Below, piece after piece: positions 1,621 to 62,905 of a DNA stretch of 64,000 nt. A model generated the notes under the pieces. That model was given only the letters and a program-made list of their open reading frames with translations. It made no database searches and had not been told where the DNA came from. This DNA is from Deroplatys truncata. Its lineage: Eukaryota; Arthropoda; Insecta; Mantodea; Mantidae. The DNA is taken from NCBI GenBank assembly GCA_030765065.1, contig CM060976.1:57644539-57708538 (forward strand), written 5' to 3'. Position numbers and translations under genes: made by a program. How positions within the stretch are numbered: position 1 is the stretch's first letter; every line of letters starts with the position of its first letter.

Positions 1621-2318
1621 TTTAAGAGAGATAGCATTTTTTCTCAGTTATACCGTCCTTCGATTAGCATTTCTCGTATAAGCTATTATTTTTAAAAGTA
1701 ACCAACATCTTAACACTAAAGTAGATCCACAACGGCATCCGGGGGCCCTTTTTTATCACAGTAAAATTGTATTTACTATCTTCTGCAGTTTCTGTGAAAC
1801 GGGTCATTTATGGTGGAAAATGTAATTCACAAAAAAGTAAAAATGGAGGAAAAGTAACAAAAATATATATATTTGCATAGAAAAATCCATATGGTTTGAA
1901 CACATATAAGCATCCATATTGAATAGTATTACCAAATTGTACAGTGAAACTTCCCTTAAAAGAAGGGCTAAAGTTTATTTCTCTACTTCGAGGTATATAG
2001 CAGTTAGGTTATTCTTCTGTGAAATAGTGCAGAATTAATGGTAAAAATGGCAGATGCTGGAGTATATATTTAAAATATAAGTTTAGTGCTCACAGTGATA
2101 AAGTATATATTAAATTAAAGAGGGAATTCGAATTTATAAAATTTATAAGACTGCATGAAAGCTACAAATGTCATTTGTGTCAATATACGCCATTTGGTCT
2201 CCCCTTAATTATTCTTTGTTCAAATTCAATTGAATGACACAGAAAATGTGAGAACAACGGATGATATGTACCAATAAATGAGTATGCTTTCAAATAAATC
2301 TTGTGTGTTACATTCAAA
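1621..2318. other. AT-rich stretch, nothing recognised
   Basis: No gene or named element seen; AT-rich sequence with A-runs and short TA-rich segments. Confidence 0.4.
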
Positions 2319-3101
2319 TGACTTTCTCTGCTCTCGATGTCTTACATGTGTGTATACAGATTATTCTTAAGAAAGTCTATTTTCCAATCTAGTTCATTTT
2401 AATCGAGATAAACCTTTACAGAAATAGTCACATACACATAAAGAGAAAAACGATAGTCAAATGTTTTGGAACCGGACGCTGTATACTCACCATATAATTC
2501 CATACTGTTTCCATGACATCGCGAGAAACAATTGAAAATCGAAAGCGCTTTAAAATAATAACTACTGAACAATTCGAACGATTATTGCTCGGGAAATGGC
2601 TGATGTCACAAAAAAGGTTGTTTGAAATAAATTCTCTGTTTTAAAGAAATTATCGTTTACCAGTTTAACGTTTACCAGTTATGAAAGATTAAAAAAGTTT
2701 CCTTCCCAATGAAAAACACTTCACAAGTTATTCCCAGAAAATTCAAGTTAGAAAGCGGATTTGTTATGTAAATATATTTAATAAACGGCAGTTTAATCCA
2801 CATCGTTAGTAATTTTTTTCAAAAAATAAAAAAATTCAAAAAATATTCCATGTAAAGGATAGTTTGGGTGAGGGATTTTCTTGAAAATCTTCGTTTGGTG
2901 TTTATCCCAAATTTCATTTTTGAGTTATTCAGTTCATAGACACACTCAAACACACATACACATACACACACAAACACATCTTTTATAAAAATACTTTTTC
3001 TGAATTCGGGGACCTCAAAACATGTATTTCCGGTGAAATGTCGATATCGAATTTTTGGGCTGAATCCAATACTTTACTTACTATGTACATGGTAGAGAAA
3101 A
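2319..3101 (+). repeat. Family A repeat, full-length, older subfamily
   Basis: Starts in the GTGTTACATTCAAATGACTT segment and ends with CTTACTATGTACATGGTAGA-type sequence, the two ends typical of the family. It carries the body landmarks seen in all copies: a TTACCAGTTATG-like segment, ATTCCCAGAAAATTCAAG, a G-rich block before TTTTCTTGAAAATCTTCG, a CA-rich microsatellite at about 2940-2980, and CATGTATTTCCGGTGAAATG near the end. Its middle resembles the copy at 58523-59374 (CATGACATCGCGAGAAACAA), which suggests a distinct, older subfamily. No coding capacity is visible. Confidence 0.75.
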
Positions 3102-3134
3102 TAAAAAAAAATCTCCCAACATAGCGAATAGTCT

Positions 3135-9180: not shown

Positions 9181-9899
9181 ACCCTCCGCAGAGGCTAGGT
9201 GTGAATTTGAGTGTGTTTCCTAATGAAAAACAGACATAAAGACAAAGCCCCTGAGATGACAACAGAAGTTAAAAGAGGCTATACAAATGAAACAAAAAGT
9301 AGATTACTCAGAAGTTTCATTAAACGCCATTCAACTTATGTTATACATTTCTTATGGTGCTAATTTTGGCCATATATATCTACAAAAATATTCCATATAC
9401 ATGTTGCTGCAGAAATGAATACAACGAATTCAAAGGATATTGACGGGAAGCTAGATAAGCATTTTGAGATAGAGAGCATATGATCCATTTTGCCAAATTT
9501 AAAATATAGGATGCGTTTTTGATATAGGACATAGTGCTGATAGGTCAATATGAGGCGAATACACCTTAAACGTATGCTTAAATCCGCCTCAAGAAGTAGA
9601 ACTGCATTATATTTGACATTTATTGCCTCTTCTATATTGATAAAAATTTCGACTACGAGGTTAGGAACGTCAATGATAATACATCAGTTGACTTCAGATC
9701 GCATTAAGAGGCTAGAACAATAATTGTAGCCCAGTAGACAGATCGCTGGTCGCTCCAAATGTATTAATGCATTATTTGTGTTGCTTTTGTATGGTTTACA
9801 TTTGATCATTTTTATATTAATCATAACATACCCTTAGTGATTAAAGGAAGTGGTTTGCATTTCAATAAGGAGTTCAATATCGAGATTTCATCCGAGATC
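9181..9899. other. AT-rich stretch, nothing recognised
   Basis: Short frames at 8981-9262 and 9360-9548 on the reverse strand show no known motif. No repeat match was seen within the window. Confidence 0.4.
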
Positions 9900-10340
9900 C
9901 ATTAAACCACCCCCCAAAATTTGTTTTTAGAAGAATACCCGGTTTGTGTGTGTTTATATGTGTATGAACGACTCAAAAACGAATAGTAAATACTAAATTC
10001 AATGTTTGTGTTGGATACTATTTGAGCATGTCTCAAATCCAAATTAGTATACATGGGAATATTGTTGATATGTTTCATTTTCTCAAGTTTGTCTAAACAC
10101 TTTAATTGAAACATATCTGCAATGCATTTTAGATATTAATGTGACAAATCACATGTGCATCTTCAATTGTATACGAAGAACCTGAGAAGTCCTGTTCTCA
10201 ATTATTTAATTTAGTGTAACCGGGAAATCCTAAGTGATACACAAAAATTTAGTACAGGAAAAACGTAAATCTCCTTCAGACGTATAGTTTGTGTCAAATA
10301 AGTTTTTTTTCCAGCGTTAACCGCTTTGAAATATTCCATG
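9900..10340 (-). repeat. Family A repeat, divergent partial copy
   Basis: Read on the reverse strand it follows the family body: a microsatellite-like TGTGTGTGTTTATATGTGT block next to GACTCAAAAACGAATAG, then TAAATACTAAATTC. Further right are a TTAGTACAGGAAAAACGTAA segment and GTGTCAAATAAG, matching the region of other copies around the ATGACATAAATT landmark. Both ends are missing or too decayed to place. Confidence 0.6.
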
Positions 10341-10949
10341 TTACATGTTTACGTTTACTCAGAAACATGTTCTGACGGAGTTGCTTAAAACTTTGCAATT
10401 GTTTTTTTAAAAAACAATTGTGTCTATGTCCCGAGTAGTACTTACGGAGTTTTCTGACAGGTGCCACTTCCTCCGTCTTGCTGAGCTTGGTTCATCTGTT
10501 TTCAGAATTGCAGAGCTGCCAACATATGACTAACAAACATCCTTCCGAGAATAAAAAATACACCTTGCACCTCCTTATTCGCAGTGGCGGCCTTAATATT
10601 ACTACTCTTTGCTTAGGTTAATTAGTAACCAGTGGTTACAGAAAAGCACGCGAGAGAAGCGAGCGTGCATTCCTTATTGATGTTCAAGTTTGACTATTTA
10701 TATAACCTTAGGGTCCTGATTCATAGTAGGTAAGGTTTAGTTCTTTTTCTATATAACATTAGGTTTATTAGCAAACAGTTATCACTTCACAAGTGACTTT
10801 TTGATATAATGCATTATCAATAATACACCGCCTAAGCATTTACGTTTATATGAGCGGGAAGCGAACAATAAAAACAACAAACTTAAAAGCTTCTGCAATT
10901 AGCGGATTTGCCTAACTGCAATAGTTTGGTAATCGCATGCGTAACTATC
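10341..10949. other. Unassigned stretch with a short perfect palindrome
   Basis: At 10396-10421 the segment CAATTGTTTTTT is followed by its perfect inverted copy with a one-base centre. The rest, including the locally GC-rich 10440-10680 part, matches nothing I know. Confidence 0.4.
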
Positions 10950-19490: not shown

Positions 19491-20330
19491 TTTACTCTCT
19501 CTACTACGTGTAGTAAGTAGGGGAAGTATTGTATTCCACCCAAAAATTCGATACCGACATTTCACCGAAAATATATGTTTTAAGACCCCCTGAATCCAAA
19601 AAGAAGCATTTTTGGAAACATGTCCGTGTGCGTGTCTGCGGACAGCGTAAATCAGAAACGAACAGTCGGATAAACACCAAACTTGGTATTTAGGTTCATA
19701 TCTTCCAGAGATACAACACGAAGGTTTTAAACAAAATCCCCCATCCCAGATTACCCTTTGCATGAAACCTTTTTCGAAATTTTTAATTTTCTCAAAAATG
19801 GCTCTAACGATTTTGATAAAAAATATCGTATATTTAAGATATCTTCATGACAAATGAAATGTATATCTCGAATTTTCTGGGAATGTCTCCAAAAGAATTC
19901 TTCATTGTGAACGACTTTTGCATAGCTGGTAAACCATAAGAGATAGACAAAATTTTAGTACACAAAAATGTAGATCACGTTAAAATACACGATTTATGTC
20001 ATATACATTTTTGTTGTTGAGTGAACTATTTTCGAGATATTGCTTGTGATTCCCTTAAATTTTCCAATACTATTTCTCAAGTAGGAATTCGTTATTCGTT
20101 TATTTTATGTCCTGGTAATGCAAAGAGAATGAAATGCACTACACAGCAACCAAGTCTTAAAATATTTGACTACCGCTTAAAACCTACCATATTACCCTTG
20201 CATCTACAAGAAAATTAGCAATAAGATTAACATCTCGATTAACATGAAGCATATGGAGAATAAGCGTTTGTAAAAATAGTTTTTACAAGAGTAGAGAAAG
20301 TCATGTGAGTGTAATACATCAGTTTTTTTT
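19491..20330 (-). repeat. Family A repeat, full-length
   Basis: Read on the reverse strand it starts with CTGATGTATTACACTCACAT and GACTTTCTCTACTCTTGTAA (20289-20325) and ends with CTACACGTAGTAGAGAGAGT (from 19515 leftwards). All body landmarks are present, including TTTACCAGCTATGCAAAAG, GGTAATCTGGGATGGGGGA, a short CA-type microsatellite slot (19618-19645) and the CGGTGAAATGTCGGTATCG segment. No protein-coding potential was recognised. Confidence 0.85.
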
Positions 20331-31440: not shown

Positions 31441-31949
31441 CAATGTTTTGTATATGCCTGCATACTCTGAAGAATTCAGGAAAAGCAAAAGTAAGGCGGT
31501 GAAGATTTATTGCATAAAGTATTACAAAATTCAAACAAATAACAGCGAATATTTTAGCTATGGTTAGTCCTACGCTAAACTTATTTGTCTCTAATTGTAT
31601 ATTTTAACCAGCATTACCTTTCTTTGAAATAATTTTTTGGTCTGTCTCCTATAGTTTCACAGAAAGCTGAAGGTATATAATTAATTAAGAATGCAAGAGA
31701 ACCCACATGCTGTTCACAGAAAGTTAAGGCTAGTCGTTTCATTCAACAGTTAATATCTACACATATAATATTTTAATAAAAATCCTAAGAACTATTATTG
31801 AATAGATGCAAATTAACATTTTCTATTTTCTGATTTTTAAAGTTTGTCCTTTAACCGGTTGGGTCATCTATATGAATGAAATGGGCGAAATAATGCTCTA
31901 ATGAGCTCGGGAACATTGAGTTTAAAGTTATCGGACATTCATTTTTTTC
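31441..31949. other. AT-rich stretch, nothing recognised
   Basis: No gene or repeat seen. Confidence 0.4.
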
Positions 31950-32450: not shown

Positions 32451-32459
32451 TAATTTTCA

Positions 32460-32720
32460 ATATAAAGGGGTAATTTGAGGGGGGAATAGCTCATCTTTTA
32501 TTCATATTCACTGACACTGTCTGTTTCAAAAATGAAATTTGGTATTTATTAAACATTTCGTTTTTGTATGCTGTTCACACTCACACCACATACATACAAA
32601 CATACTTAAGAGTCAAACTCTAAAATTGTATTTGGGGGCAGGCTTCAGTACGCCTCAAAATGTGCATTTCCTGTGAAAACTCGTATTGTTCTAATGTATA
32701 TTCGCTGAAGAATGCTTAAG
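32460..32720 (+). repeat. Family A repeat, partial 3-prime copy
   Basis: AAATTTGGTATTTATTAAAC, TGCTGTTCACACTCACACC with a CA-type slot, then CTCAAAATGTGCATTTCCTG and GAAAACTCGTAT follow the order of the last third of the family. Ends unclear; divergent. Confidence 0.55.
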
Positions 32721-33844
32721 AATCATACACGCAGTGTATGAGACCCAGTCTACACTGATTGCATGATGATGCAATATTCTATTTGGAACAAAGTTTACTG
32801 TAACACAAATAAATTGTCCAAATGTTCTGCATAAAGTAAGATTAATGTTAAAACTGCAAAAACAAATAGTGATCGTTTCTATCTCGCTCTAAACACTTCA
32901 AGAAAGTGTATTTCTCCAAATCGTTGCTCATTTATTTTTTCTGGGCTTTAATAACTCCGTCTCGTTGCATAGACGACATCGTGTTTGTTTTTGTTTGTTT
33001 TTGTAGGTAGCAGAAAACCTTGCAGCAAAAATGGTGACCACCTGTTGATTTCCCACGAACAAACAGGAAGAAAATAAAGCTAAGAGTCAAAGCGATGATG
33101 CCAAGGATGAGGGATTAAAAGTTTCTTAAGCAGAAGGCCGTGGAAACTTTATCCTTAAGTCAGCAAAGGACGGAAATGTTCCAAAGAGACCAAGAAGGCT
33201 CATTTGAAATGGTGATCTCGAGTTATTCTCAGAGTCGACAAACTTTGTACAAGCTTGTTGGTCTTTTGTTGGCGGCAGAATGTCAAAGACAATCGGCTTC
33301 ATTAATGTCCTCGTGGTTGTCATCGTTGGTCACAATAGTCCCAGTATACCTTTCACATAGCGCGTATAGACAAACTAAATCGCATAAAGTACTGAAAGCC
33401 TTTATGGTTTAAATATTAATTCACTTCATTTTAGAAGAAGCAAAAGTCCACAATTTACCTTCTGTTAATTTCACGCAAATGCAGGACATAAAACTGAAGG
33501 AATGTACCTAATTCTTAAGGACTTGTGTCAAACTGTTTTGGGGATACTGTTTATTATTAATTCATTTATTTTCATACGCTAATACAAAATGTTTTATTGT
33601 GTATTCCGTAACATTTTATTTTAAGCTTAAAAACCAAGTATCAAGAGAATTTTGTACAAAGTGTAATTGGTATATTATAAAACAAATATTTTGTATAAGT
33701 GTTATTGTTTTTTCCAAATTTACCTATTTAATTCATAGAAATATATATTTTCAAAATTCACAGAAATTTCTATTTCATTACTATTTAAATCCCTCCTGGT
33801 AACAAGAGTACTTTGAAGGCTAAATTATATTGAAAAAAATTAAT
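32721..33844. other. Unassigned stretch
   Basis: An open frame at 33140-33412 has no motif I recognise. The remainder is AT-rich. Confidence 0.4.
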
Positions 33845-34368
33845 TGGGTATTTTAAAGAGATCTACATATAATTGGGTAGTACGTTTTCCCTTTAAGTTT
33901 ACCAGTTGTACAAGATTATACAAAATCCTTTCAAATGGGGCACTTCAAAGGGTATTCCCAGAAAATTCAAGATATACATTTTATTTACTATGTAAATATC
34001 TTTAATATACGGTATTTTAATTAAAATCGATAGAGCCATGTTTTAGAAAATCTTTTTTTCGGAAAATCTTCCATCTAAAGCGTAGTTGGGGTTGGGGGGT
34101 TTCTTTAAAATCTTCCTGTTTTATTATTGAAAGATACTGAACTGAAATATAAAGTTTGGTTCTTAGCCAAATTTTCGTTTTTGAGTTACTTTGCGCACAA
34201 ACACACACTCAGATATACACACATACACGCGCGCGCGGACCTTTTTGTAAAAATGCTATTTTTGGTTTCGGGGGCCTCAAAACATATATTTCCGGTGAAA
34301 TCTCGACATCGAATTTGTGCTTGAAATACAATATTTCCCCTACTTATTATACGTAGTAGAGAAAGTAA
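33845..34368 (+). repeat. Family A repeat, 5-prime-truncated
   Basis: Begins in the body near AGATCTACATATAATTGGG and keeps ATTCCCAGAAAATTCAAGAT, the G-rich block, TTTTGAGTTACTTTGCGCAC with a mixed CA/CG microsatellite (34198-34240), TTTCCGGTGAAATCTCGAC, and the end TTATTATACGTAGTAGAGAA. The 5-prime module is absent. Confidence 0.78.
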
Positions 34369-35369: not shown

Positions 35370-35545
35370 TTTATAGTAGGAAAGAAAAAATTTGAAATTC
35401 AAATGCTCCGCTAAGTCGCCTAAATCCACAAAGAACACTTAAAAAGCCCCCGCATGTATATGTGGTTGTGTGTGTATGTGACAGAGACAGAGAGAGAACA
35501 TCACAATTTGAAAACGAAAAGTAGAATAAATACCATACACCAATA
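35370..35545 (-). repeat. Family A-like fragment, doubtful
   Basis: A TATAGTAGGAAAGAAAAAAT start, a GTGTGTGTATGTGACAGAG slot and CGAAAAGTAGAATAAATACC follow the family order on the reverse strand, but divergence is high. Confidence 0.35.
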
Positions 35546-35680: not shown

Positions 35681-36084
35681 TACATGATTTTACATTAAAA
35701 AGGATAATACTTATTGCATTCACACCTCTAATTACTGGGACAAAAGATTAGCTCATTTTTTCTATCTAGTTCAGGTGAATCTACATAAATGTGGGTACAA
35801 ATACTTTCATTACACATTTAATTAATTATACACATAGCAGGGATAAGGGAGACTGAAGCGACAGGACTGTTTTTAAAAAGCGGGTCGCTATATGATGGCC
35901 TTAAAATTGAATATACTTCATATATTACCAAAATCAAAATAAAGCGATTTAACACATAAAAACATGCTCGGACATTCAAAACAAAAGCAACATATATCTT
36001 AAAAACAGTTAACGCCACAAAGATTTATTTAACATTAATGGTCTGTTTTAACAATATCTGCAGTTTTTAGTAATTCTTTGTCTC
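35681..36084. other. AT-rich stretch, nothing recognised
   Basis: No gene or repeat seen. Confidence 0.4.
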
Positions 36085-36400
36085 GCTCCACAGTAACGTG
36101 TGAGGCTCGCATTCGGGAGGTCCCGGATTCGATTCGCATCGCCCGCCCCTTCTGAACTTGGATTTTTGTGGTTTTCCCTAGTCGGTAGGCGAACATTGGG
36201 TAGTTTCTCATCTACCACGATTTATTTTCCATCAGTTCCCTTTCATTCCGTTTCCGTAGACACAAGAGGGCTGTTAGGGACTTCCTTACGTCTCTGTAAT
36301 CTGTTTGATTCCGGCCTTAGCCTCCTGTGGTTCGTTCACTTCATCCCTTCCTCCTGGAGGGGTGGTGACTGCAATAGATCTATACTGTAACAGTGCGCCT
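36085..36400 (+). repeat. S1 SINE-like retroposon copy
   Basis: CGTGTGAGGCTCGCATTCGG, GGTCCCGGATTCGATTCGC (box B), CCTAGTCGGTAGGCGAACAT and GGTAGTTTCTCATCTACCAC are shared with 38285-39095. The remainder is pyrimidine-rich and ends near GGAGGGGTGGTGACTGC. Confidence 0.7.
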
Positions 36401-44490: not shown

Positions 44491-45352
44491 ATTTTAATTT
44501 CTTTACTAGTTACTTATAATAATTGGAGGAAGTATTACATTCCACTAAAAAAACAAACACTCACTGACTTTCTTACTACTGCACAAACTATTGTTACAAA
44601 TGCTTATTCTCCACCTACTTCCTGTTTATCCAGATAAGCATTTGCAAAAACTATCTTATTGCTAGTTTTCTTGCAGGTGCAAGGGCTATACGGTAGGCTT
44701 TATGTGATAGTCTGAGCCTTAACTTTTAGGAGCTGGTTGATGTGCAGCATTCCCTTCTTTGCATGTCTGGCACATATTAAAATTAAAAAATCAAGAATAA
44801 TGAACTCCCTTTTTGAGAAAAATATTGCAAAATTCAGGCAAATAAAAATGAATGTCTCGGAAATGGTTCACTCGACCAAAACAATGCATATGACATAAAT
44901 TATTTATTTTAATGAGATCCACTACTAGTTATGAGAAAGCCATCCAGAATGAAGAGGACCTTCGGAGACATTCCCAAAAAGATTAAAAATATACGTTTCA
45001 TTTACCATGAAAATTATTTTAAACATATGATATTTTAATCAAAATGGTTAGCCATTTTTGAGAAAATCAAAATGTTCGAAAAATGTTCCATGTAAAGGGT
45101 AGTCCGGAGTGGGGCAATTTTAAAAAGGTTTGTGTTGCATCCTTGGAAGATACTAATCTCAAATGCCAAGTTTGGTATTTATCCGACTTTTCGTTCTTGA
45201 GTTAGGCTGTTTACAGACAGATACGTACATGGACATGTTTCAAAAAATGCTTTATATGGATTCAGGGCACCTCAAAACATGTATTTATGGTGAAATCTCG
45301 GTATCGAATTTTTGGGTGGAATGCAATACTTACTATACGTAGTAGATAAAAT
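44491..45352 (+). repeat. Family A repeat with an inverted 3-prime end at its left
   Basis: 44491-44550 (TTTACTAGTTACTTATAATA, GGAAGTATTACATTCCAC) is the inverted complement of the family's own right end. It directly abuts a forward copy that starts with CACTGACTTTCTTACTACTG and runs through GGTGCAAGGGCTATACGG, the body, a very short microsatellite slot (45208-45235) and the end ACTTACTATACGTAGTAGAT. So this copy looks like an element with terminal inverted repeats of about 55 bases. Confidence 0.75.
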
Positions 45353-46346: not shown

Positions 46347-46364
46347 TGGCGTGAGTCGCCGGGT
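46347..46364 (+). promoter_or_regulatory. Putative primer-binding site
   Basis: TGGCGTGAGTCGCCGGG starts a few bases after the LTR. Sites beginning TGGCG are typical of tRNA-primed LTR elements; the matching tRNA was not determined. Confidence 0.5.
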
Positions 46365-47433
46365 AATTGGCGGAGGTGCCGAGCAGTTGGTTTGATTTGT
46401 TTTGAGATTTTAAGTGCAAATTTTTTTCTTCCCTCCAAATTTAACGCTTTCTGCTCCACGTGGTCGTGAAAAATGTAAAGTTCTTTCTGGCTGAAGGGTA
46501 AGGATTTTTATACTTTAATTTGTGATTCTCTTCTTCTAAATTTTGGTTGCATCATTTCTGAAAGTTTGGTGTCGAAATTTCAATTTTGAGTTCATTTTTG
46601 CATATTTTCCCATTGTCTGCCGGGTGACGCTAAAACTTCTGACTCCATTTTCCCCTTGTTTTGGCTTCATTTCCTTTAAATTGTATCACTGTGTTCCGTT
46701 CTTTGTGCTGGTTAATTTCAAAAAATGTTTCTGTGAAAGTTCAGTGGTGCAACGAACGAGATAGTTGTAGTTTCACAATGTGCTCGTCACGTGTTGGCTA
46801 TCCGTTTGCAAATCTTGTTTTCTGTGTTTATTAGCAGTGGTTTGGAAATGTATTACTTTATATTCCAGTGATTGTGATTTCTAGCTATTTACTGCACTTT
46901 TCTGAGTTATTTTTCGTGTAACTTTTATGTACGCACGTGTGTTGTGTAATTCCCGCGTGGTCGTGCATTTCAGCAACAATTTTTAGCTTGTGAAACCAGT
47001 CTTCCTCAGCACGTGTTTTGGCGCGTTTCTTTGCGTGTGCATATCAGATTATATACATTTGATTTAAGAGAAAAAAAAGAGAAGTTTTGTGTGCTAGTTT
47101 AAATTACAAGTTTGTATTCTGCTCCTTTTGAGAATCTTCGCGGTGGTCACAGTAAGTGTGACGTAGTTTTTTTAAGTTCCAGTTCGAGGTTTCTCACTGC
47201 AGCTATCATTTTGTTTTCTTCCATATGTTCATTCTGCTTAAAAATCTTGGTATTGTGTCCAAGTGGCTTGTGTAGCCGTGTGTTAGTATAATTTTCTGAT
47301 ATTTCGCCGCGGGCGCTTAATTGTGTTCTTTCTGCAACTGTTTTATTTGGCTATGTTCTGATCTTGCTACTTACATTCATGTGATGTTATAAGTGTTTAG
47401 TTTGGTGTAATCTGAATTGCTTGGCCCTACTGT

Positions 47434-47751
47434 TTGTTTATTGGTTGCGTTATCTTTTGTGCTGCAATCATGTCTAAGCGACGTACTGCACAGAAATCTG
47501 ATATAGCAATTGTTCCAGTTAGCGAGCATAGCGAGGTAGATTCTATGTCTAGTGTTGGTACGCCTGTTGTTACGCAGTTGTCAGTGATGGCTAATCCGCC
47601 TGTCGTGGCCCATGTTCCCCCACCAGCTGCCTGCCGCCGGTCATTGACCCCTCTCTCAGGGAGCATTCCAACGAGTTGTCGCCGTATGAGTTATTTTAGA
47701 ATTTTGCAATGTTGGCTACTACTGCTAATGGCCGCTCTGAGAAAATCATAA
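47434..47751 (+). other. Short open frame inside the LTR element
   Basis: The longest plausible frame of the interior; from an ATG at 47470 it reads MSKRRTAQKSD, then an acidic and proline-rich part. It has no recognisable gag or pol motif. It might be a trace of a gag N-terminus or chance. Confidence 0.3.
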
Positions 47752-48501
47752 TGATGATAATTTTGCTTTACCGTTGCCAAGTTTGGTTTAATTCCGCAAT
47801 GCATATTTTTAAGGGAAAATCTTTCGCAGTTACTCATGTAAGTAAAAGTTTCAGGAGCTACCAACCTTGCCAGTATCTACACCTAATTAGGTTTGATGTG
47901 CTTCTGATATGGACCAGTACGATGTGGATGTTGATGAACCAGCTGTACGTGTGTTACCAGATTTTGGACAATTTGCACGGGAATTTTGTGGTAAACGAGT
48001 AAGAGATAAGAAAAAAAAATCACCTGTAAGTATGTAAACATTGTGAGTCTAAACTATGGACGAATGAAACAGTTTTACGACTCACACAGGTATGCTAAAT
48101 TTATTGTTTCAGTGACTGATGCTTAATTAAGCTTTGTTTTTCAGGAATACTGTGCTATGAATGTCTCTGCTAAATTACAAGTATATTGTTATTTTGGGTG
48201 TAATTTAAATTTTGAATTGTGTTTTGATAACTGCAAATCATTTGTTTTGTTGTATTATGCTGCAGGAATGTGTTTCAGGTGTACTATATGCTTAATTGAG
48301 CTTTCATTTTCAGGAATGTTATGTGACAATATTGTTTTGAGTAATGATGTGATGTTGTTTTGTTGCATTCGATTTGATTTGATATGATTTGATTTTGACT
48401 CTATTTGATTTCCATAATGATGCTGTAATCTTTATTTGCAGAAATTTGTTGCATGAATAGTGTTTGTATGTATGTGTGTATTTGAGGTTATGTGATATAG
48501 G

Positions 48502-48706
48502 TGAGATTTGCCTCGGTGGGAGTGCCAAAGAGTAACCCCGATGGCGTAGTGTGAGTTTATGTGAGAAATAAGAGTTGAGATTTGCCTCGGTGGAAGTGCC
48601 AAAGAGTAACCCCGACGGTGTGGATGTGAGATGAGGAGAGATGAGATGAGATGAGATGAGATGATGTCAGCTTCGGTGGAAGTGCCACAGTGTAACCCCG
48701 ACAGTT
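48502..48706 (+). repeat. Three-unit tandem repeat inside the LTR element
   Basis: Units at about 48502, 48577 and 48664 share GGTGGAAGTGCCA followed by GAGTAACCCCGA. A (GATGA)n microsatellite sits between units two and three (48629-48663). Confidence 0.75.
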
Positions 48707-50288
48707 GTCTGATTTCAGAGATTTTGCTTATTGGTGTTGCTGTAACGTGCCCAGTATAGCGTGTGTGATGAATTCACACGAGAGATTAAATGGATGGAAG
48801 TGAATGTAATGAAAATAATTTTTTTTTCTCCGTTTATGCAACAAGTTTATTAACATCTTAGATAGCAAATGTTAATTCCACCTGTTTTCCAGCTTATTTC
48901 TTGATTTTGAGGATGTAGATGCAACATTATAATGTCATGTTATTTGTGTAATTCCTGAATTAATGTGATTTCTTGAAGGTTATGCCTATGTCAGATGTTT
49001 TGAATTTACAGCATGTTAAATGAGACACGTAAGTGCAGATGTTTTGTTTTGGAGAGAAAATTGATAGATGATGATGATTGAAGTAATGATCGAGATTGCA
49101 CTATTACTATTACTGCTAATGTTGATGATGATTATAATTGAGTTAATGCTCACACTGCGATGAGAAGGATAGTGATGTGGATAAGAAGTTATATTGGTGA
49201 CAAGAGTAGGACACTAGTAGTTGAAAGCATGTCACGTGGCGTAGTTTAGAAATGTATTGTGGATGTAGCTTGTAGTGATGCATACACTAGTTTGCGTAGT
49301 TAGTTAAGTCAGTGTTGTGTGTAATTTGGGGCCATGGTCAGTGTGAATGAGTTCATTTCATTGTCATGTGTGATTGTCTTGTAAGTGCACTTACTTTCTT
49401 TTGTTAGTGATACCAGCTGGTTATTGAGTTGTAATATTGGGATCCCAAGATAAGGTTATGTTTCATTTCTGTCATGTTTATGTACTTTGAGTCTGTTTTA
49501 CTGTTATTTGCATTATGAAGCATTGTAAGTTACACTTTGGATGGCAACTCTGTAAAATTTCTGTCTTATGCCAATTTGTTCTAATTTTCTTTTCTCTTTA
49601 CCCCATGTCATAAAAATTCTTTAAGTGTACACTTTTCATACTTTAAAATCTTTAATTGTAAATGACATACCCTTCTTTTATGTGTGATTCTTTGTGGGAG
49701 CATCCTGTTTATTGTGTGGTGGTTTTGTTTTAGTATTGTGCTGGGCAGAGAGCGAGAAGATGCACCAGCATCCCCAGAGCACACCAGAAGTCAAGAAACA
49801 CCACAGGGAAGCTGTCGGGCAGCCACTACACTGCCGTGGCATAAGGAGCCACCATGTCGGGGGGCAGTCCAAGTCAGCGACTGCCACCCTGTTGTCATCA
49901 CCAGAGACCTGCGGTGCTAATTCTACACCAGGACAAATCGTCGTTGTGGGCACTGTCTAAACCCACCCACAAACAGTTACGGCAGTTCATCACCCTTTTG
50001 CGCAGTGTAGTGTGCCTGTGAACTAAGGCAGCGTGGTGTGTGCGTGTGCGGGATGCCAAAGCTAAGTGCATTAACAATACTAAGTCGACAGCACTTACAT
50101 CGCTCCTCTCTCTCCATATCACCCAGCACCATGGTGTCGTCGGCTGGGTGCAACCACACATATTTATTACTGTTTTATTTTACATCACACATTTGTATGT
50201 CATTTTTTTTGGTATGTCTTTCTTTTGTTTGTTCCTGTATTTTGTATTTATGTTCTTTCTGTCGACGAGGACGTCGACTTCGGTGGCC

Positions 50289-50297
50289 AGGGGGAGA
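50289..50297 (+). promoter_or_regulatory. Putative polypurine tract
   Basis: AGGGGGAGA lies directly before the right LTR (one base before the TG), as expected for plus-strand priming, and fixes the element's orientation. Confidence 0.7.
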
Positions 50298-50785
50298 TGT
50301 GGCATGTGCACAGATTATATATTGGTAATGCGCCCTCTGGTTACCCAAGTTGAAGGTTGGCAGTTTATCTGAGGAGGGGTGTTTAAGGGGAAACAGTCTC
50401 ATTGGAGGGGATGGCGTTAGTGACGCCAAGTTTAACGAGTTTTCTCAGTCAGTCTGGGACGAGTCTTTGTGTGAGGTGTACGGATAGCTGCCCAATGATA
50501 TGGCGTCCTCGCCCCGGCAGGCACATGGGGTAAGTTATTATAATAAATAAATCTAGTTGTCCATTCCGTTGCAGTTCTTAATTATGGTAGAATAGAATCC
50601 TTGCCTCTCCCTTCAGCCAGGAATTATATTAGTGTAAATTATGTTGTGAATTTAACTTTAGCTGCGTCCCTTTGTCGGTGCCTCTTAAATTAAAGTTTCC
50701 TTTGTTTGAATAACGATCCCTCTCGCAGCGAGTTGCCCACCACTGAAGTTAAATAATTAATTACATAAATGTGAGGTACGCGACA
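50298..50785 (+). repeat. Right LTR
   Basis: 488 bp, TG...CA ends, essentially identical to the left LTR. Confidence 0.93.
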
Positions 50786-51075
50786 ATATATTCTTTGTTA
50801 TTCTTTTGAATTTTCAAATTCTTATACTTTTTTCATATGATAAGTCGCTATTTGCTTTTTACTCGTCAAACCTATCGATCCGCTTTTTACAAATCTGACT
50901 ATCGCTACAGCCTGCTTTATCCTTCTTACGTATACCTACAACGAAATGTATAAATATGTAATTAAAGTTTATCTTAATTAAAAAGTGGCAGGTACAATAA
51001 TAACGTTTTCACAAGAATAGCTTGTAGAAGAGTGAGTAGAGATAGTTATGTGAATGTAATGCGTTAGATGTGTTT
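50786..51075 (-). repeat. Family A repeat, inverted, part 2 (split by LTR element)
   Basis: Continues the copy interrupted at 45855: TTATTCTTTTGAATTTTCAA, ATTCTTATACTTTTTTC, then decayed 5-prime module and the end GTAGAGATAGTTATGTGAAT with GTAATGCGTTAGATGTG (the family's start on the reverse strand). Confidence 0.75.
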
Positions 51076-51808: not shown

Positions 51809-52012
51809 TTACTTTGCTGCTTACTTTTAGTAATTAGAAAAAATATTGCATTTCACAAAAATTTGAATACAAAAGTAACACTTTAAATATACATTATGAG
51901 GTTTCCTAACCCCCCCCCAAAAAACGAAAAGTCGGTTAAATACGAAATTTGGTATTTAACTCATATTTTTCCCTGGCCAATCGTTGTGAAGTATTGCAGG
52001 AATATATAAAAA
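51809..52012 (-). repeat. Family A 3-prime end, inverted, left of a compound array
   Basis: TTACTTTTAGTAATTAG, ATATTGCATTTCACAAAAAT and GGTTAAATACGAAATTTGG are the inverted right end of the family (about 180 bases), abutting the forward array at 52013. Confidence 0.65.
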
Positions 52013-53817
52013 AAAATCTGATGTGTTACACTCACATGACTTTCTCTAATCTTGTACAAACTATTTTTACAAGCGCTTACTCTCCATATGCTTCATGTTA
52101 ATCTAGATGTTAATTTTATTGCCAATTTTCTTGTCGGTGCAAGGGGTATTGGTAGGCTTTAAGCGATAGTCAAATATTCTCTTTGCACTACCAGGACAAA
52201 AAAAATCTGATGTGTTACAATCACATGACTTTCTCTACTCTTGTACAATCTATTTTTACAAACGCCTATTCTCCATATGCTTCATGTTAATCGAGATATC
52301 GAGATGTCAATCTTATTGGTAATTTTCTTGTAGATGCAAGGGGAATATGGTAGGTTATAAGCGATAGTCAAATATTTTAACGCTGGTTGCTATGTGGCGC
52401 ATTTCATTCTCTTTGCATGTCCAGGACATAAAAAAAATCTGATGTGTTACACTCACATGACTTTCTCTACTCTTGTACAATCTAATTTTACAAACGCCTA
52501 TTCTCCATATGCTTCATGTTAATCGAGATATCGAGATGTCAATCTTATTGGTAATTTTCTTGTAGATGCAAGGGGAATATGGTAGCTTTTAAGCGATAGT
52601 CAAATATTTTAACGCTGGTTGCTATGTGGCGAATTCCATTCTCTTTGCATGTTCAGGACATAAAAAAAATGAATAACGAATTTGAGAAAAAGTATAAGTA
52701 TTGGAAAATTTAAGGAAATAACAAGCAATATCTCGAAAACGGTTCACTGAACAAAAGAAACGGATATGACATAAGTTGTGTATTTTAACGCGATCTACAT
52801 TTTTTGTGTAGTAAAATTTTGTCTATCTCTTATGGTTTACCAGTTATGCAAAAGTCGTTCACAATGAAGAATATTTTTGGAGACATTCCCAGAAAATTCG
52901 AGATATACATTTTATTTGTCATGACAATATCTTAAACATATGATATTTTAATCAAAATCGTTAGAGCCGTTTTTGAGAAAATTAAAATTTTCGAAAAATG
53001 TTCCATGTAAAGGGTAGTCTGGGGTGGGGGGATTTTCTTGAAAACCTTCGTGTCGCATCTCTGGAAGATACTGAACCTAAATACCAAGTTTGGTGTTTAT
53101 CCGACTGTTCGTTTTTGAGTTATGCTGTTCACAGACACACAGACACACAGACACACAGACAGACAGACACACAGACACACAGACACACAGACAGACACAC
53201 ACACGGACATGTTTCCAAAAATGCTTTTTTTGGATTCAGTGATTCTCAAAACATGTATTTCCGGTGAAATCTCGGTATCGAATTTTTGGGTGGAATGCAA
53301 TACTTCCCCTACTTACTATACGTAGTAGAGAAAGTAAAAATGAATAACGAATTTTAGAAAAAGTATAAGTATTGAAATATTTAAGGAAATAACAAGCAAT
53401 ATCTCGAAAACGGTTCACTCAACAAAAGAAATGTATATGACATAAGTTGTGTATTTTAACGCGATCTACATTTTTTGTGTAGTAAAATTCTGTCTATCTC
53501 TTACGGTTTACCAGTTATGCAAAATTCGTTCACAATGAAGAATACTTTTGGAGACATTCCCAGAAAATTCGAGATATACATTTCATTTTTCATGACATTA
53601 TCTTAAACATATAATATTTTCATCAAAATCGTTAGAGCCATTTTTGAGAAAATTAAAATTTTCGAAAAATGTTCCATGTAACGGGTAGTCTGGGGTGGGG
53701 GGATTTTCTTGAAAACCTTCGTGTCGCATCTCTGGAAGATACTGAACCTAAATACCAAGTTTGGTGTTTATCCGACTGTTCGTTTTTGAGTTATGCTGTT
53801 CACAGACACACACACAG

Positions 53818-53851
<34 letters not shown>

Positions 53852-54006
53852 ACACACACACAGACACACACACGGACATGTTTCCAAAAATGCTTTTTTT
53901 GGATTCAGTGGGTCTCAAAACATGTATTTCCGGTGAAATCTCGGTATCGAATTTTTGGGTGGAATCCAATACTTCCCCTACTTACTATACGTAGTAGAGA
54001 AAGTAA
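52013..54006 (+). repeat. Compound family A array: three 5-prime modules, two bodies
   Basis: Three consecutive 5-prime modules start near 52017, 52207 and 52437 (each with CTGATGTGTTACA, CACATGACTTTCTCTA and TGCTTCATGTTAATC). The second and third are about 235 bases and nearly identical; the first is shorter. Two consecutive bodies (about 52675-53335 and 53338-54006, offset 671 bases) begin AATGAATAACGAATTT and end ACTATACGTAGTAGAGAAAG. All junctions lie in short A-runs. The bodies differ mainly in the microsatellite (CAGACA-rich at 53139-53205; CA-rich at 53804-53873). Confidence 0.88.
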
Positions 54007-54431: not shown

Positions 54432-54560
54432 ACTCCCTTAAAAAACTGATGTGTTACACTCACATAACCTTCTCTACTCATTCTTCTAGAAACCACTGCT
54501 TATTCTCCCATCTACTGCTTGTTTATCTGTAGTAATACCACAGTTGGTTTTCAAATCATC
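54432..54560 (+). repeat. Family A 5-prime module fragment
   Basis: AAAAACTGATGTGTTACACT, CACATAACCTTCTCTACTC and GCTTATTCTCCCATCTACTG match the start of the family; the copy breaks off after about 120 bases. Confidence 0.7.
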
Positions 54561-57044: not shown

Positions 57045-57867
57045 AAATCTTATGTGTTACACTCACATGGCTTTCTCTACTCTTGTACAAAATATTTTTA
57101 CAAACGCTTATTCTCCATATGCTTCATGTTAATCGATATGTTAATCTTATTGCTAATTTTCTTGTAGATACAAGGGGAATATGGTAGGCTTTAAGCGATA
57201 GTCAACTCATTTAAGAGGTGGTTGCTATGTGGAGCATTCCATTCTCTTTGCATATCCAGGACCTAAAAAAATGAATAACGAATTTGGGAAAAAGTATAAG
57301 TATTGGAAAATTTAATGGGATAACAAACAATATTTCGAAAATGGTTCACTCAACAACAGAAAAATGTATATGACATAAATCATGTATTTTAACGGGATCT
57401 ACATTTTTTGTGTAGTAAAATTTTGTCTATCTCTTATGGTTTACCAGTTATGCAAAAGTCGTTCACAATGAAGAATACTTTTGGAGACATTCCCAGAAAA
57501 CTAGATATACATTTAATTTGTCACAAAAATATCTTAAACATATGATATTTTAATCAAAATCGTTAGAACCATTTTTGAGAAAATTAAAATTTTCGAAAAG
57601 TTTTCCATGTAAAGGGTAATCTGGGGATTTTCTTGAAAACGTTCATATCGCATCTCTAGAAGATACTGAACATAAATACCAACTTTGGTGTTTATCCAAC
57701 TGTTAGTTTCTGAGTTATGCTGTTCACAGGCACACACGGATATTTTTCCAAAAATGCTTTTTTTGGATTAAGGGATCTCAAAACATAATTTGCGGTGAAA
57801 TCTCGGTATCGAATTTTTGGGTGGAATGCAATACTTCTCCTACTTACTATACGTAGTAGAGAAAGTA
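57045..57867 (+). repeat. Family A repeat, full-length, simple copy
   Basis: The cleanest single copy: 5-prime module (TGTGTTACACTCACATGGCT to GGACCTAAAAAAATGAATAA), body, a minimal microsatellite slot (CAGGCACACACGG at 57727) and the end CTTACTATACGTAGTAGAGA. It shows that one module plus one body, about 823 bases, is the basic unit. Confidence 0.88.
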
Positions 57868-57959: not shown

Positions 57960-58350
57960 GATTGGTCATATCTCCCATTTACGGCATGAATGAAATAGTT
58001 AACATAAAACTTTAATACTCTTTACACATTTCGTTTTAGGTATAAGAAGAGTATACAGGGATAAAGTGACAGATTTTAATGAAAGGTGCTGGCTACGTGA
58101 TGACAGAAATTCCATGCTCTTTGTATGACCACGATAAAAACAAGCTTTGACGAGTTACATTCACAAGAATTTCTCCACCCATGATGCCTTATTCTATATA
58201 GCTTATACAAAGTATGCTTTAAAAATGTATGTTTCTAACCACATAATGTTAATTGACATTAACAGTTCTCATTTGTTTACTGTCTTCTGTAGGTCGTACG
58301 TAATAGCAAAGAGCTTGCAGTATAAGCGATGTTTTACAGTAGCGAAGATG
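57960..58350 (+). repeat. Family A, decayed 5-prime module pieces
   Basis: GGTGCTGGCTACGTGATGAC with ATTCCATGCTCTTTGTATGA resembles the module end, and GAGTTACATTCACAAGAATT with TTCTCCACCC a module start after it. Highly diverged. Confidence 0.45.
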
Positions 58351-58522: not shown

Positions 58523-59374
58523 TTAAAAAACTGATCTGTTACAATAATATGACTTATACTACCTACTACCGTTTATTTATTTACACCTATATAGCTTCTA
58601 CAAACTATTCCTACGAAAGCTTATATTTCTATCTTCTACTCTTTGTTAATCGATATAAACCTTTTCAGAAATAATTCCGCATATTTCGTTGAAGTTACAA
58701 GGGGAATAGAGGAAACTGAATCCATAGTCAGATGTTTAAAAGCTAGCCGCTGTAATATACGTAGAAACTTCTTACTCTTTCCATGACAACAACGCGAGAA
58801 ACAAATGAAAGGCGATAGCACTTAAAACTGACAAATTATTCAACAGCTGAAACCAATAACAAGTGATATCTCGGAAGTGGCTAATACCATAACGAGTTAT
58901 TGAAATAAACCGTATGCTTTAAAGATATCCAGCACGCTCTGTGTATCTCTTATGGTCTAGCAGTTATACAAAATTGTACACCAACCCTTCGCAATGAAGA
59001 GGAATTCCCAAAAAATTCAAATTATACACTTTATTTGTCATGTATCTTAACCTACGGCATTTTAATCCAAATCTTTAGAGCCATATTTAAGAAAATCTAA
59101 AATTTCAAGAAATCTTCCATTTAAAGAGTAGTTTTGGTTGGGGGGGGGGATTTTCGCTTCATCCTCGAAAGACGCTTAACAAATGCATCAAGTTTGTTAT
59201 TTATCCAATTTTTCGGTTTTTAGTTGTTCTGTTCACAAATAGATATACGGAATATTTGCTAAAAATTCATTGAAAGGGCTTAAAACACGTATTTCCGGTA
59301 AAAATATGGTCAATCGAATTTTTGGGTTGAATACACTACTTCCTCTGCCTACTAGGTACGTGGTAGAGAAATTA
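58523..59374 (+). repeat. Family A repeat, older subfamily
   Basis: Starts AAAAACTGATCTGTTACAAT and ends CTAGGTACGTGGTAGAGAA. Shares with 2319-3101 the CGCGAGAAACAAATGAAAGG segment instead of the A-run junction. The G-rich block has eight or more G (59145-59152). The slot near 59240 has almost no CA repeat. A partial module end precedes it (58470-58520). Confidence 0.75.
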
Positions 59375-60971
59375 ATAAAATGTATACATTAAAATTTCTG
59401 TGAATAGCTTGTTAAGACTCCATTCATTTGATTGAAATTGTTTATAACTCAGAAAATATATTTTTAATCTAGAGATAGAAATATAGAGATATTTCAGAAT
59501 AAATATCGAGGTTACTACAATATCTATTTTTATAGCTTTAGCCGTTTTTTATATTTTCTGTTATTGGCCAACATTTTCCATTATTATGCTACACATTTTT
59601 ATAACACTGCACTTGCACTTTCATTAAGCATAAGACAATGCAAAGAGTAATCAAAATATTAAGATCACCATACAAAGAACGAGTTTTAAACGGGTTAGAC
59701 TATTGTGCTAGAGGCCTGTAACCATCTATGCTTCTATATTTTAACGAATTGACAACTTTCGCTGCGGGGATAGCGGGGCGTGATATCCGTAACATAATTG
59801 GTTCTCTCGCCCGATGTAAATTCTAGAACCCCTGTAGAGACCCATCTCCCGCGAACCATCTCGAAGCTCCTGCGATTATATGTCGGCGAGCGTTCTCGCA
59901 ACAAAGAATGAGTTAGTGAATGACGTTCTTATTAGGTGACGCAGTCGCTCAACGAATTCTTCTTGTCAACTAGAGTGGAGAGGAGAAGTCCTATGTTCGA
60001 TAGAGGCAAGTTGAAGAGAGTATTTTGGTACACAAAATGTAATAATAGTAATAATAATTTTAATAAAGTTTGGAGGTTTTAAGCAATGGTTTCAAATGTT
60101 GACTTGAAATGTTATTTTGATTTTTTTTTTGTGCTTTAATTTTAATCAGGCTTATGAGAAGTGCTGTGTTCGACACTCCAGTGAGAGAAGTGGAGGGAAG
60201 AAGGGACTGCTTTTTGCATTATTCATTACACCGCTACGCGCAAAAAAGAAAAGTGAAGTGACGATGAAAACTGAAATAAGTCAGAATATGTATTTAAACC
60301 ATTTTGGAAAGTTTTTATTATGCTTATTAAGTATAAAACGAGCTCTCTCTTTTCAAAAACAAACTAACTTACAGAGGATATGAAAGTAAATATTGGTAAG
60401 TAGAGAGAGTCTTGTGTATCTAATAGGTACAAGAGATGTTTTGTTCTTCTCCGGTAAGGTTACGCCCTTCTCCTTCTCTAGAGATGTTATAAGCTTTTGC
60501 ACACCTCATTATCATTTAAAATTGCCGTTTGTGTGAAGGAGTTTAAATAAACTTCTTGTCCAGTAACCCTACACCTTGAATATCGTGTTTCCTTTTATTA
60601 AACACGAGAGTTCTTGCTCTACTTAGAACAATACGAGAATAAGACAGAAAGCAGAGGAAACGAACTAAGTAAAGGTTTTTCGTTTGGTTTTGTGAGCTTA
60701 AAATTCTTGTTAATACTCTGATTGTTATTTCAGCTTTTAATTAATAAAAATTAAACCAAGACAAATTTAGTGTTATTACGTAAGATAAAATCAGTTTGAA
60801 ACTTAATTTCTCTTATTTCCGCATTTATTTTTTAACTGAGGGTTCTATTTGGGTTCTTCAATACAACCTTAGGAAAACCAGCATACAGCCATTTTTAACT
60901 CGCTACAATTTACTTAAGTAATATCCTAGCACGCAAATAGGTGTTCACGATTCTATCTATGTTTTCCTTCT
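59375..60971. other. Unassigned stretch with a GC-richer island
   Basis: 59745-60030 is clearly less AT-rich than its surroundings and is followed by AATAATTTTAATAAAG (about 60051-60068). I could not find matching ends or a second copy. The frame 60117-60383 (88 codons) has no known motif. Confidence 0.4.
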
Positions 60972-61065
60972 ACGTTATTATAAGTAGAGGAAGTATTAGT
61001 GTATTGTAACATAAAATTCGATACGAAGTTTCACCCCAAATAAAAGCTTTGAGGCCCTCGGAATA
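60972..61065 (-). repeat. Family A 3-prime end, inverted
   Basis: ATTATAAGTAGAGGAAGTAT, AAAATTCGATACGAAGTTTC and GAGGCCCTCGGAATAAC are the inverted right end, abutting a forward start at 61066. Confidence 0.7.
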
Positions 61066-61437
61066 ACAAAAAATTCTGATGTGCTACATTCACATGACTT
61101 TTTCTACCCTCTGTCATTTATTAGTGGACACACAAATTATTCTTAAAAAAGCTTATTTGTCTACCTACATTATTTTAATCGAGAAATAGCTACATTACAC
61201 ATTTCGTTAGGATAATAAGACAACAGCGACAGTTAAATTGTTTTAGAACTGGACGCTAAATGCTGGCCTTAATATTCCATACACCTTCCATACAATCACG
61301 AGAAACTGAATATCGACAGGATTTTTAAAGCATGACAATAATATTGAGCAATTAGAACCATTAATAGCGGATACCTTGGACATGGCTTATGCTACAAGAA
61401 AAATTTGTTTTAAAAGATCTACATTTTTTGCTTTCCC
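61066..61437 (+). repeat. Family A 5-prime part
   Basis: ATTCTGATGTGCTACATTCA, CATGACTTTTTCTACCC to AAAGATCTACATTTTTTGC, then cut off where an inverted copy begins. It is of the older subfamily (GAACTGGACGCTAAATGCTG). Confidence 0.75.
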
Positions 61438-62292
61438 TGCCACGTATGTAATACGTAAAGAAGGTATCTATTGCATTCTGCCAAAAATGTTGGCACCTAG
61501 ATTTCACCGCAATTACAAGTTTTTGAGGCATTCTGAATAAAAATAATTTTTTTTTGAAAATTTTCCGTCTATAAACGTGTGTGTGTCTGTATATCTGTGA
61601 ATAGCATAACTCAAAAATTAAGTCCGATAAACATTAAACCTCGTATTTAGGTTCAACATCTTCCCAAAATGCGACACAAACATTTTCAAGAAAACCACCC
61701 ACCCCAAACTACACTTTGCATGGAAAATTTTTCGAAATGTTTGATTTTATAAAAAATGGCTCTAACATTTTGATAAAAAATACCACATATTAAAGATATT
61801 TTGGACAAATAAAATGTATATTTTGAATTTTCTAGGAATAACCTATGAAGTCGTGTTCATTCGGAAAGCATTTGCCTAATTTTATGCAACTGGTAAACTT
61901 TAAGCAATAGACGATGCAATACAGAAAATTTAGAACTCTAAAATACACAATTTTTTCAAAATTAAGTTTTTTATGGCATAAGCTATTTCTGAGATCTGCG
62001 TTATTAAAGGTTGGGATTTTTCATTTCCTTTCAACATTCAGTTGTTTCTCGCGATTGCGGAAACAATATGGAATTTTTAGGCCAGCGTATAGCGTCCAGC
62101 TCTTAAGATATTTAACTGCTACTGCTATCTCTTTGTATCTATAATGAATTCTGTAAATTAGCTATTTCTGTAAAGGCTTATTTTTATTTAAATGTAGTAT
62201 ATAGAAAAATAAACCTTAATTAGAATAGTTTGCATATCCATAATAGACGATAGAGGGTAGCCAAACTCATGTGAATGTATTACATCAGATTT
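61438..62292 (-). repeat. Family A repeat, inverted, near full-length
   Basis: Reverse-strand copy from TTTACGTATTACATACGTGG (its right end at 61440-61460) through a TG-type slot (61578-61600), CCACCCACCCCAAACTACAC and GGCTCTAACATTTTGATAAA to its start at 62255-62290 (CTCATGTGAATGTATTACAT). Confidence 0.78.
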
Positions 62293-62609
62293 TTGCATAG
62301 TGCGTTTTCGTCCATCGCTTAATGTTACCAGTTATACGGAATTTCTTTCAAATGAAGAGGACTTCACAAGCTTTCTCTAGAAAATTCATGACATACATTT
62401 TATTTGTCAGTTGTTTTATTAATATTAATCAAAATCATTAGAACCATCCTGGTAAAATAAAAACACTGAAAAATCCCATGTAAAGGTAGTTGGGATGTGG
62501 AGTTTTCTTGAAAATCTTCGTGTCGCATCTTTGGAAAATGTCTGAACTTAAAAACCAATTTTGTTATTTATTCCACGTTTAGTTTTTGAGTTATGCTGTT
62601 CTCTCTCTC

Positions 62610-62643
<34 letters not shown>

Positions 62644-62794
62644 AGAGACACAAACACGGGCCTTCTGCTAAAAATGCTTTCTTTTTTATTCAGGCGAGCT
62701 CTAAACACGTATTTGAAGTGAAATCTCGGTATCAAATTTTTAGGTGGAAGGCCATACCTTCTCTAATAACTACGTGCGTGATAGAGAAAGTAAA
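62293..62794 (+). repeat. Family A repeat, 5-prime-truncated
   Basis: TTAATGTTACCAGTTATACG, AATCTTCGTGTCGCATCTTT, a CT then CA microsatellite at 62601-62655, GAAGTGAAATCTCGGTATCA and the end ACTACGTGCGTGATAGAGAA. Confidence 0.78.
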
Positions 62795-62809: not shown

Positions 62810-62905
62810 TGGCGTGTGTGAGCGGTAAATACTAATCTTGGTATGTAATTTCAGCAGTTTCCTAGGATTTTCAAGAAAATTCTACTCCCCAAACTACCCT
62901 TTATA
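62810..62905 (-). repeat. Family A fragment cut by a Tc1 insertion
   Basis: TTTTCAAGAAAATTCTACTC and CCCAAACTACCCTTTATA are inverted body sequence; the copy stops at the TA where the Tc1 element begins. Confidence 0.65.

Follow-up and report, generated by a model that had tools for sequence, protein, structure and literature searches.

A high-copy repeat that looked unclassified is probably a non-autonomous Helentron with an autonomous partner in the same insect genome

Helentrons and their non-autonomous, DINE-1-like derivatives, the HINEs, are an already known kind of element. As described by Thomas, Vadnagara and Pritham (2014; PMC4067079), HINE/DINE-1 elements are non-coding and of sub-kilobase length, with inverted repeats of about 12 bp near both ends and a palindrome at the 3' end; they target T-runs without a target-site duplication (TSD) and have an autonomous element with common ends, and DINE-1 is described with an embedded microsatellite. 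The same description treats the serine of RGSPH in Rep motif 2 as diagnostic of a Helentron as against a Helitron. In the accessible text of PMC5148889, Helitron2/FoHeli of Fusarium has asymmetric terminal inverted repeats and a T-rich target, and composite elements with internal termini are discussed. The Cg_HINE of the Pacific oyster is portrayed in PMC7492417 as a HINE carrying satellite-like arrays. According to the available part of PMC10941475, 39% of one annotated genome is still classed as unknown elements when a published Orthoptera library is used.

The repeat analysed here, family A of Deroplatys truncata, is like HINE/DINE-1 in all the features just listed and like FoHeli in its inverted repeats and target; the Fusarium likeness is one of description, and in the accessible text of PMC5148889 no endonuclease domain is reported for any fungal Helitron. 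The probability is about 0.88 that family A, about 833 bp long, is a DINE-1-like HINE, a non-autonomous element that would be moved by Helentron machinery, and a partner element found in the genome is very probably its mover. The sequence-only reading of this DNA had left the family unclassified. That label no longer fits, given the HINE anatomy of family A on the minus strand and an autonomous element with common ends. Nor does the family stand clear of larger known elements, a possibility which that reading had itself raised: its copies share about 700 bp with a larger element of known class.

The window, that is, the whole stretch of 64,000 bases analysed, had been credited with more than a dozen copies on both strands. 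We compared it with a profile of 833 positions made from 38 of 41 full-length copies; left out were L047 (a mis-joined pair, 41% from the majority), L070 (an array shared with L069) and L073 (951 bp). All 15 places named by the sequence-only reading match this single profile, each within about 70 bp, which bears out that they form one family, and the named copy at 57045-57867 is full-length with correct boundaries (profile 1-832, 905 bits). As a count of copies the list fares less well: several places are parts of one interrupted element, so insertion events are fewer than places, and six further fragments were missing from it (Table 1). Against the earlier estimate of roughly 9 kb, the profile gives 27 matches that cover 10,861 bases of the window, with 0 matches in the reversed window. 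Three window copies (19493, 52438-53336 and 57045) are inside the profile and match it by construction. Plain BLAST of 57045-57867 against the window agrees with this picture, with fewer old copies. The 4.9-kb insert that splits one element (45860-50785) holds no ORF of at least 120 aa. Family A itself is non-coding, as had been proposed; its longest stop-to-stop frame is 73 codons, and 67 of 200 shuffles have one as long or longer.

Table 1. Copies and pieces of family A in the window
Feature	Position	Strand	Remarks
Full-length HINE, named copy	57045..57867	-	5' end 57867 (TACTTTCTCTACT), 3' end near 57048, then T-run (A-run on +)
5' terminal inverted repeat TACTTTCTCTACT of named copy	57855..57867	-	0 mismatches
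3' subterminal inverted repeat of named copy	57070..57081	-	AGTAGAGAAAGC here; AGTAGAGAAAGT in most aligned copies
3' palindrome ATGTG-7 nt-CACAT of named copy	57052..57068	-	4 nt plus Ts from end
Full-length HINE	19493..20324	+	Profile 1-831
Full-length older HINE	2299..3102	-	Profile 2-832
Near full-length HINE	44557..45350	-	Profile 4-821
Full-length older HINE	58531..59373	-	Profile 2-831
Nested pair, outer HINE	53859-54005, 53336-53820, 52206-52438	-	Split at internal T-run
Complete HINE inside outer HINE of 52206..54005	52438-53336	-	BLAST and profile
(CA)n-type microsatellites in nested pair 52206..54005	53130-53209 and 53801-53873
Extra HINE 3'-end fragment, in tandem	52017..52205	-	Profile 610-832
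Nested pair 61075..62792, outer HINE	62290-62792 and 61075-61430	-	Profile
Full-length HINE splitting the 61075..62792 element	61431-62289	+	Profile
HINE in two halves	45445-45859, 50786-51068	+	4.9-kb insert between halves
5' part of HINE	33839..34367	-	Profile 1-506
Old HINE fragment	9834..10355	+	Profile 18-570
Old HINE fragment	32452..32683	-	Profile 63-280
Old HINE fragment, absent from earlier list	31517..31824	-	Profile 284-581
Weak HINE-like fragment, absent from earlier list	35458..35538	+	Profile 125-189, E 0.00075
Old HINE fragment, absent from earlier list	35756..36088	-	Profile 448-771
Weak HINE-like fragment, absent from earlier list	51921..51961	+	Profile 162-202, E 0.00011
HINE 3' end fragment	54445..54527	-	Profile
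Old HINE fragment, absent from earlier list	58022..58143	-	Profile 610-730
HINE 5' end fragment, absent from earlier list	60964..61074	+	Profile 6-113
Old HINE fragment	62824..62905	+	Profile 176-271

A genome search with the named copy yielded 40 stretches, of which 39 have family matches and one has none. The 39 copies first aligned come from the top 40, by score, of 10,594 candidates, so that their divergence from the majority sequence, 3-7% (L047 apart), is biased to young copies. In 37 of the 39 genome loci, and in the window, the ends are fixed, from TACTTTCTCTACT... to ...AGTAGAGAAAGTCATGTGAGTGTAACACATCAGA plus Ts. In the window orientation of the named copy the right boundary is sharp, ...CTACTTACTATACGTAGTAGAGAAAGTA giving way to an A-run, and at the left boundary an A-run is followed by ATCTGATGTGTTACACTCACATGACTTTCTCTACTC...; read on the minus strand, the element runs from a T-run and TACTTTCTCTACTACGTATAG to AGTAGAGAAAGT-CATGTGAGTGTAACACATCAGA and a second T-run. 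Inverted ends of 12 bp, as described by the sequence-only reading, are present (ACTTTCTCTACT / AGTAGAGAAAGT) but asymmetric, one being terminal and the other about 24 nt inside. The distance of the 3' inverted repeat from the HINE end is about 23 nt plus Ts, and the stretch between is a short palindrome. The 5' terminus is an inverted repeat in its own right and forms a hairpin; its fold is more stable than those of 199 of 200 shuffles (z -3.2). On its own the 3' palindrome has no such advantage over shuffles (z -0.95). Its five pairs are each preserved in 46-48 of 51 distinct ends, among which there are no clear compensatory changes. A (CA)n/(CACAGACA)n tract is also present in the HINE. A canonical Helitron, with 5' TC, 3' CTRR and insertion between A and T, was rejected, in keeping with the earlier view: the ends are TACTTT...CAGA(T)n and the target is a T-run.

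Both flanks were compared in 41 full-length copies, a set that includes the mis-joined L047 and two monomers of one array (L069, L070) and leaves out L001-L008, which repeat other loci. T stands at -1 in 39 of the 41. On the 5' side there are exactly four Ts in 23 copies and at least four in 31; on the 3' side at least four Ts follow CAGAT in 32. The sequence-only reading had suggested searching the flanks of many copies for target-site duplications, and none beyond the Ts was found in these 41: flank words of 2-8 bases, all-T words excluded, repeat no more than shuffled partners. Empty sites were found as well. The HINE in L073 stands where L072 and L075 have a plain T8, the loci being otherwise 98.7% identical, and the nested window copy at 52438-53336 has many empty counterparts in the T-runs of other HINEs. 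Judged by eye, each insertion adds some 4-6 Ts and no other base, so a TTTT duplication is inseparable from Ts borne by the element.

The assembly comprises 4.29 Gb in 818 contigs, and a genome search placed family A on every one of its 16 large sequences, of which 15 measure 134-339 Mb and the remaining one 707 Mb. At up to two mismatches in 36, the 5' terminus occurs 252,927 times (126,257 + 126,670) and the 3' terminus 249,888 times (124,224 + 125,664); reversed-pattern controls for both termini gave 0 occurrences in the genome. Over the first 15.9 Mb of C1, a correctly oriented exact 3' end lies within 1.3 kb of 42 of 85 exact 5' ends, against 1 of 85 with strands flipped, and the pairs have a median span of 868 bp, 39 of the 42 falling in 700-1100. 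This pairing used 85 of 100 listed 5' ends and 74 of 100 listed 3' ends; the rest were dropped, 26 3' ends because they belong to the C1 array and 15 5' ends because they lie past the point where the 3' list stops. If every counted terminus belonged to a complete copy, the family would occupy 208 Mb, or 4.9% of the 4.3-Gb assembly. Among 20 random 1.5-kb stretches, 7 match the profile (reversed control 0), over 3,774 of 30,000 sampled bases (12.6%, bootstrap 4.2-22.3%); with old copies counted, family A may make up 4-22% of the genome. The accessible text of PMC3789558 counts 67,555 Helitron-related sequences of 21 families in silkworm, and that of PMC7486953 puts helitrons at 7-20% of gomphocerine grasshopper repeatomes, so that abundance on this scale is not unprecedented for large insect genomes.

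The genome contains at least 152 Pfam Helitron_like_N matches, and 0 of 14 control genomes match. A partner copy on C13 (L072, L071), read as it stands, has an open frame of 2,408 aa with Helitron_like_N (100.3 bits), PIF1 (101.1 bits), DUF6570 and Herpes_teg_N, the last of which we take to be a region of cysteine-protease type; Rep and PIF1 helicase thus lie in a single ORF. The ORF also includes about 18 tandem charged repeats of 21 residues (63-bp units, L072:3366-4493). Among partner copies, ORF lengths of 2261, 2324, 2345, 2387 and 2408 differ by multiples of 21 residues, which suggests that this repeat changes in copy number; other lengths do not fit. Rep motif 2 of the partner is RGSPHEH (VEFQMRGSPHEH). 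Among the other Helitron loci (L049-L068), 11 of 20 have the canonical form RGLPHAH and 9 are without the motif. These 11 canonical Helitrons are like the partner in having a Rep of the rolling-circle class and differ from it in RGLPH versus RGSPH; the HINE ends are not TC...CTRR. Canonical Helitron Rep genes, several of them with stops, coexist in this genome with the Helentron-type element.

The C-terminus of the partner is less clear. Exo_endo_phos_2 reaches 28.3 bits (cut-off 27.4) only with the C-terminal 241 aa scanned alone, and is absent from scans of the 1,391-aa partner frame at E<=0.01 and E<=1. Other endonuclease models in NCBIfam and Pfam scans of the C-terminus fall below cut-off (Exo_endo_phos 19.0 or 14.3 of 24.5 bits; exonuclease III 16.7 of 99 bits), a PDB sequence search with the C-terminal part returned nothing, and a single-sequence structure model of that part was uninformative (mean pLDDT 36.4). 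The translation does contain the words GDFN and SDH, presumably of the kind known from the Exo_endo_phos-type endonuclease family. The partner may be said to bear a putative, weakly supported C-terminal endonuclease. Of 600 candidates 40 were scored; 24 of these are full-length, matching the 1,149-residue Rep-helicase query from end to end with 97-100% identity. In 22 of the 24 the Rep-helicase region is stop-free, so the partner family looks young.

Partner and HINE have much of their ends in common. The first ~700 bp of the partner are collinear with the HINE, at 83% to the window copy (BLAST) and a mean of 90% to the full aligned copies. The 5' terminus is identical over 21 bases (0 mismatches), the 3' terminus differs at 2 of 36 positions, and the partner 3' repeat, TGTAGAGAAAGT, has 11 bp in common with that of the HINE. 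Up to CAGAT, 39 of the last 60 positions agree, and 33 of the last 36; this is under the published 80% rule, which makes the two different subfamilies, although the 11-bp rule still places them in one family. There may be a partner that matches the HINE more closely. Downstream of the common 700 bp, at L072:1305-1812, the 5' noncoding part of the partner contains more stretches resembling the HINE: positions 698-418 in inverted orientation and 301-495 in direct orientation.

Several features bear on membership in the HINEs: inverted repeats of 11-15 bp, a 3' palindrome, a T-rich target, no coding capacity, and a partner whose repeats are identical over at least 11 bp were all found. The partner is like a Helentron in its Helitron_like_N, PIF1 and RGSPH, with a marginal C-terminal endonuclease match, and is set apart by its length (10.4 kb in C9), a 5' end doubled by a HINE arm and the ~18 tandem 21-residue repeats. 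Family A in turn differs from described HINEs in its own sequence, its ~250,000 termini and a partner of another subfamily by the 80%/60-bp rule. Its 3' repeat lies about 24-27 nt from the end, unlike the 38-60 bp of HINE families from mites, a spacing that PMC4067079 gives as a description of seven mite families and, in its accessible text, does not state as definitional. Among the matches listed, the literature on Helentrons and Helitrons of Orthoptera, katydids and bush-crickets yielded no description of family A, and a full-text search for its terminal sequence yielded only papers that are unrelated, judged by title and the start of the abstract; the family may or may not be in repeat libraries. 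What is notable beyond the routine is its scale, the doubled 5' end and the possible self-nesting considered below.

The anatomy could also be read as that of a Helitron2-type non-autonomous element in the strict sense, with a partner that has no endonuclease and an unchanged rolling-circle mechanism. The terminal inverted repeats, being asymmetric, and the palindromes at the two ends agree with the Helitron2 description in PMC4067079, the TTTT target side fits that in PMC5148889, as do the copies with exactly four 5' Ts (23 of 41), and the endonuclease call is marginal. This reading is nonetheless unlikely: RGSPH is diagnostic of a Helentron Rep according to PMC4067079, Exo_endo_phos_2 is above cut-off on the C-terminal part scanned alone, and the TT/T-run target and DINE-like microsatellite fit HINEs as well.

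It is very improbable that family A is a MITE, derived by deletion from a TIR transposon of the cut-and-paste type whose terminal inverted repeats are 12 bp long. Such an element would explain inverted repeats near both ends and the absence of coding capacity, but here one repeat is terminal and the other ~24 nt inside, the 41 copies have no TSD beyond Ts, empty sites differ by gained Ts only, and what the end-sharing element encodes is no TIR transposase but Rep and a PIF1 helicase. Hardly credible is an origin outside Helentron machinery, as a dispersed satellite or SINE-like retroposon. Some copies do stand in tandem, among them those of a 3.4-kb array on C1 and a 130-bp x4.6 array of the 3' region in L078; these arrays look secondary, however, for dispersed copies have two fixed ends, unrelated flanks and no TSD beyond Ts, and the ends are common to a Rep/helicase element.

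Returning to the Helentron reading, we examined both ends in 8 of the 24 full-length autonomous copies, picked from the best-scored and not at random. In all eight, a HINE segment (positions 1-611) precedes the 5' end and stops at the internal T-run of the HINE (...GTTATTCATTT directly followed by TACTTTC); in C13a two overlapping stretches together show it. Autonomous copies have this segment in common at 97.7-100% identity (145 bp only in C13a), which indicates that it travels with the autonomous element. In C9 and C1 the outer flanks resemble neither HINE nor partner, and the unit extends from the 5' end of the HINE as far as the 3' end that belongs to the partner itself, a length of 10,414 bp in C9. 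As the layout of these two units has it, HINE and partner ends are used as one pair, and both ends would then serve one machinery. The simplest reading is that the partner once landed in a HINE and then moved with the HINE 5' end and its own 3' end.

Four of the eight copies (C13a, C8, C5 and C4) are nested again in a HINE T-run, at one and the same position; on the right side of C4 there is a diverged relative, then more 3' ends, and the arm compared there does not adjoin the insertion. C13b and C13c are also within HINE sequence, at other places. That the four are a single composite moved as a unit is the less likely reading: divergence between copies is 2.4-7% in the outer arms and 0-2.3% in the fixed 5' duplicate. 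With the outer arms the more divergent, separate landings are likelier, the gap being modest. The genome has about 3 million A/T-runs of at least seven (estimated from a random sample) versus about 250,000 such sites in HINEs. Finding four of eight copies in the HINE T-run is above expectation, with a probability of about 0.001 for 4 million targets and 0.01 for 2 million. The eight copies are not a random choice, however, and just 2 of 41 HINEs have the HINE T-run site in a flank, so that a partner preference for the HINE T-run is suggestive. A fuller scheme of self-nesting, in which the partner repeatedly lands in the T-run of its own derivative and the current lineage owes its substitute 5' end to one of these landings, is possible but on balance doubtful.

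With an internal T-run and terminal Ts in the HINE, T-run targeting alone would yield nested and head-to-tail arrays. If an array came from a single round of rolling-circle copying, its neighbours should resemble each other more than copies paired at random. The neighbours of the L040 and L045 arrays show no such closeness (rank 30 of 40 and 31 of 40), but those of the window array do (95.5%, rank 1 of 40). Head-to-tail arrays may thus arise by repeated T-run insertion or by rolling-circle read-through.

Arrays of another sort were also seen. The start of C1 (L069, L070; C1:19012-25456) is a tandem array with a period of about 3,409 bp and a HINE at the identical site in both units, which implies that the HINE was amplified as part of a satellite; at least 26 exact 3' ends are listed for this array (C1:20512-119397). 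At L078:901-1500 (C8:147048567-147050066), an array of 4.6 copies of a 130-bp unit, which match at 98%, corresponds to the 3' subterminal region of the HINE, and by this correspondence the array is satellite-like and born from the HINE. In carrying satellite-like arrays the family is like Cg_HINE; it differs in that the Cg_HINE arrays, as PMC7492417 presents them, are central repeats and that of L078 is 3' subterminal.

A mechanism can be proposed from these features. The Helentron protein would nick at the 5' T/TACTTT junction, and one strand would be displaced, or copied by rolling circle, up to the 3' palindrome. The strand or circle would then enter a T-run, which the putative endonuclease domain may open; a circular intermediate would join the ends as ...CAGATTTT/TACTTTC.... 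HINEs would move because their ends match those of the autonomous element, and insertion into HINE-borne T-runs, internal (~611) or at the 3' end, would produce nested and head-to-tail arrays.

A repeat that looked unclassified can now be assigned to a mechanistic class, and its likely engine is identified. Since the termini, a candidate partner and near-identical open copies are all in one genome, Helentron cutting, copying and target choice become directly testable. If the self-nesting is true, the parasite would be both a landing pad and a spare end for its own engine, permitting amplification without disruption of host genes, and would seed new composites, tandem arrays and satellites.
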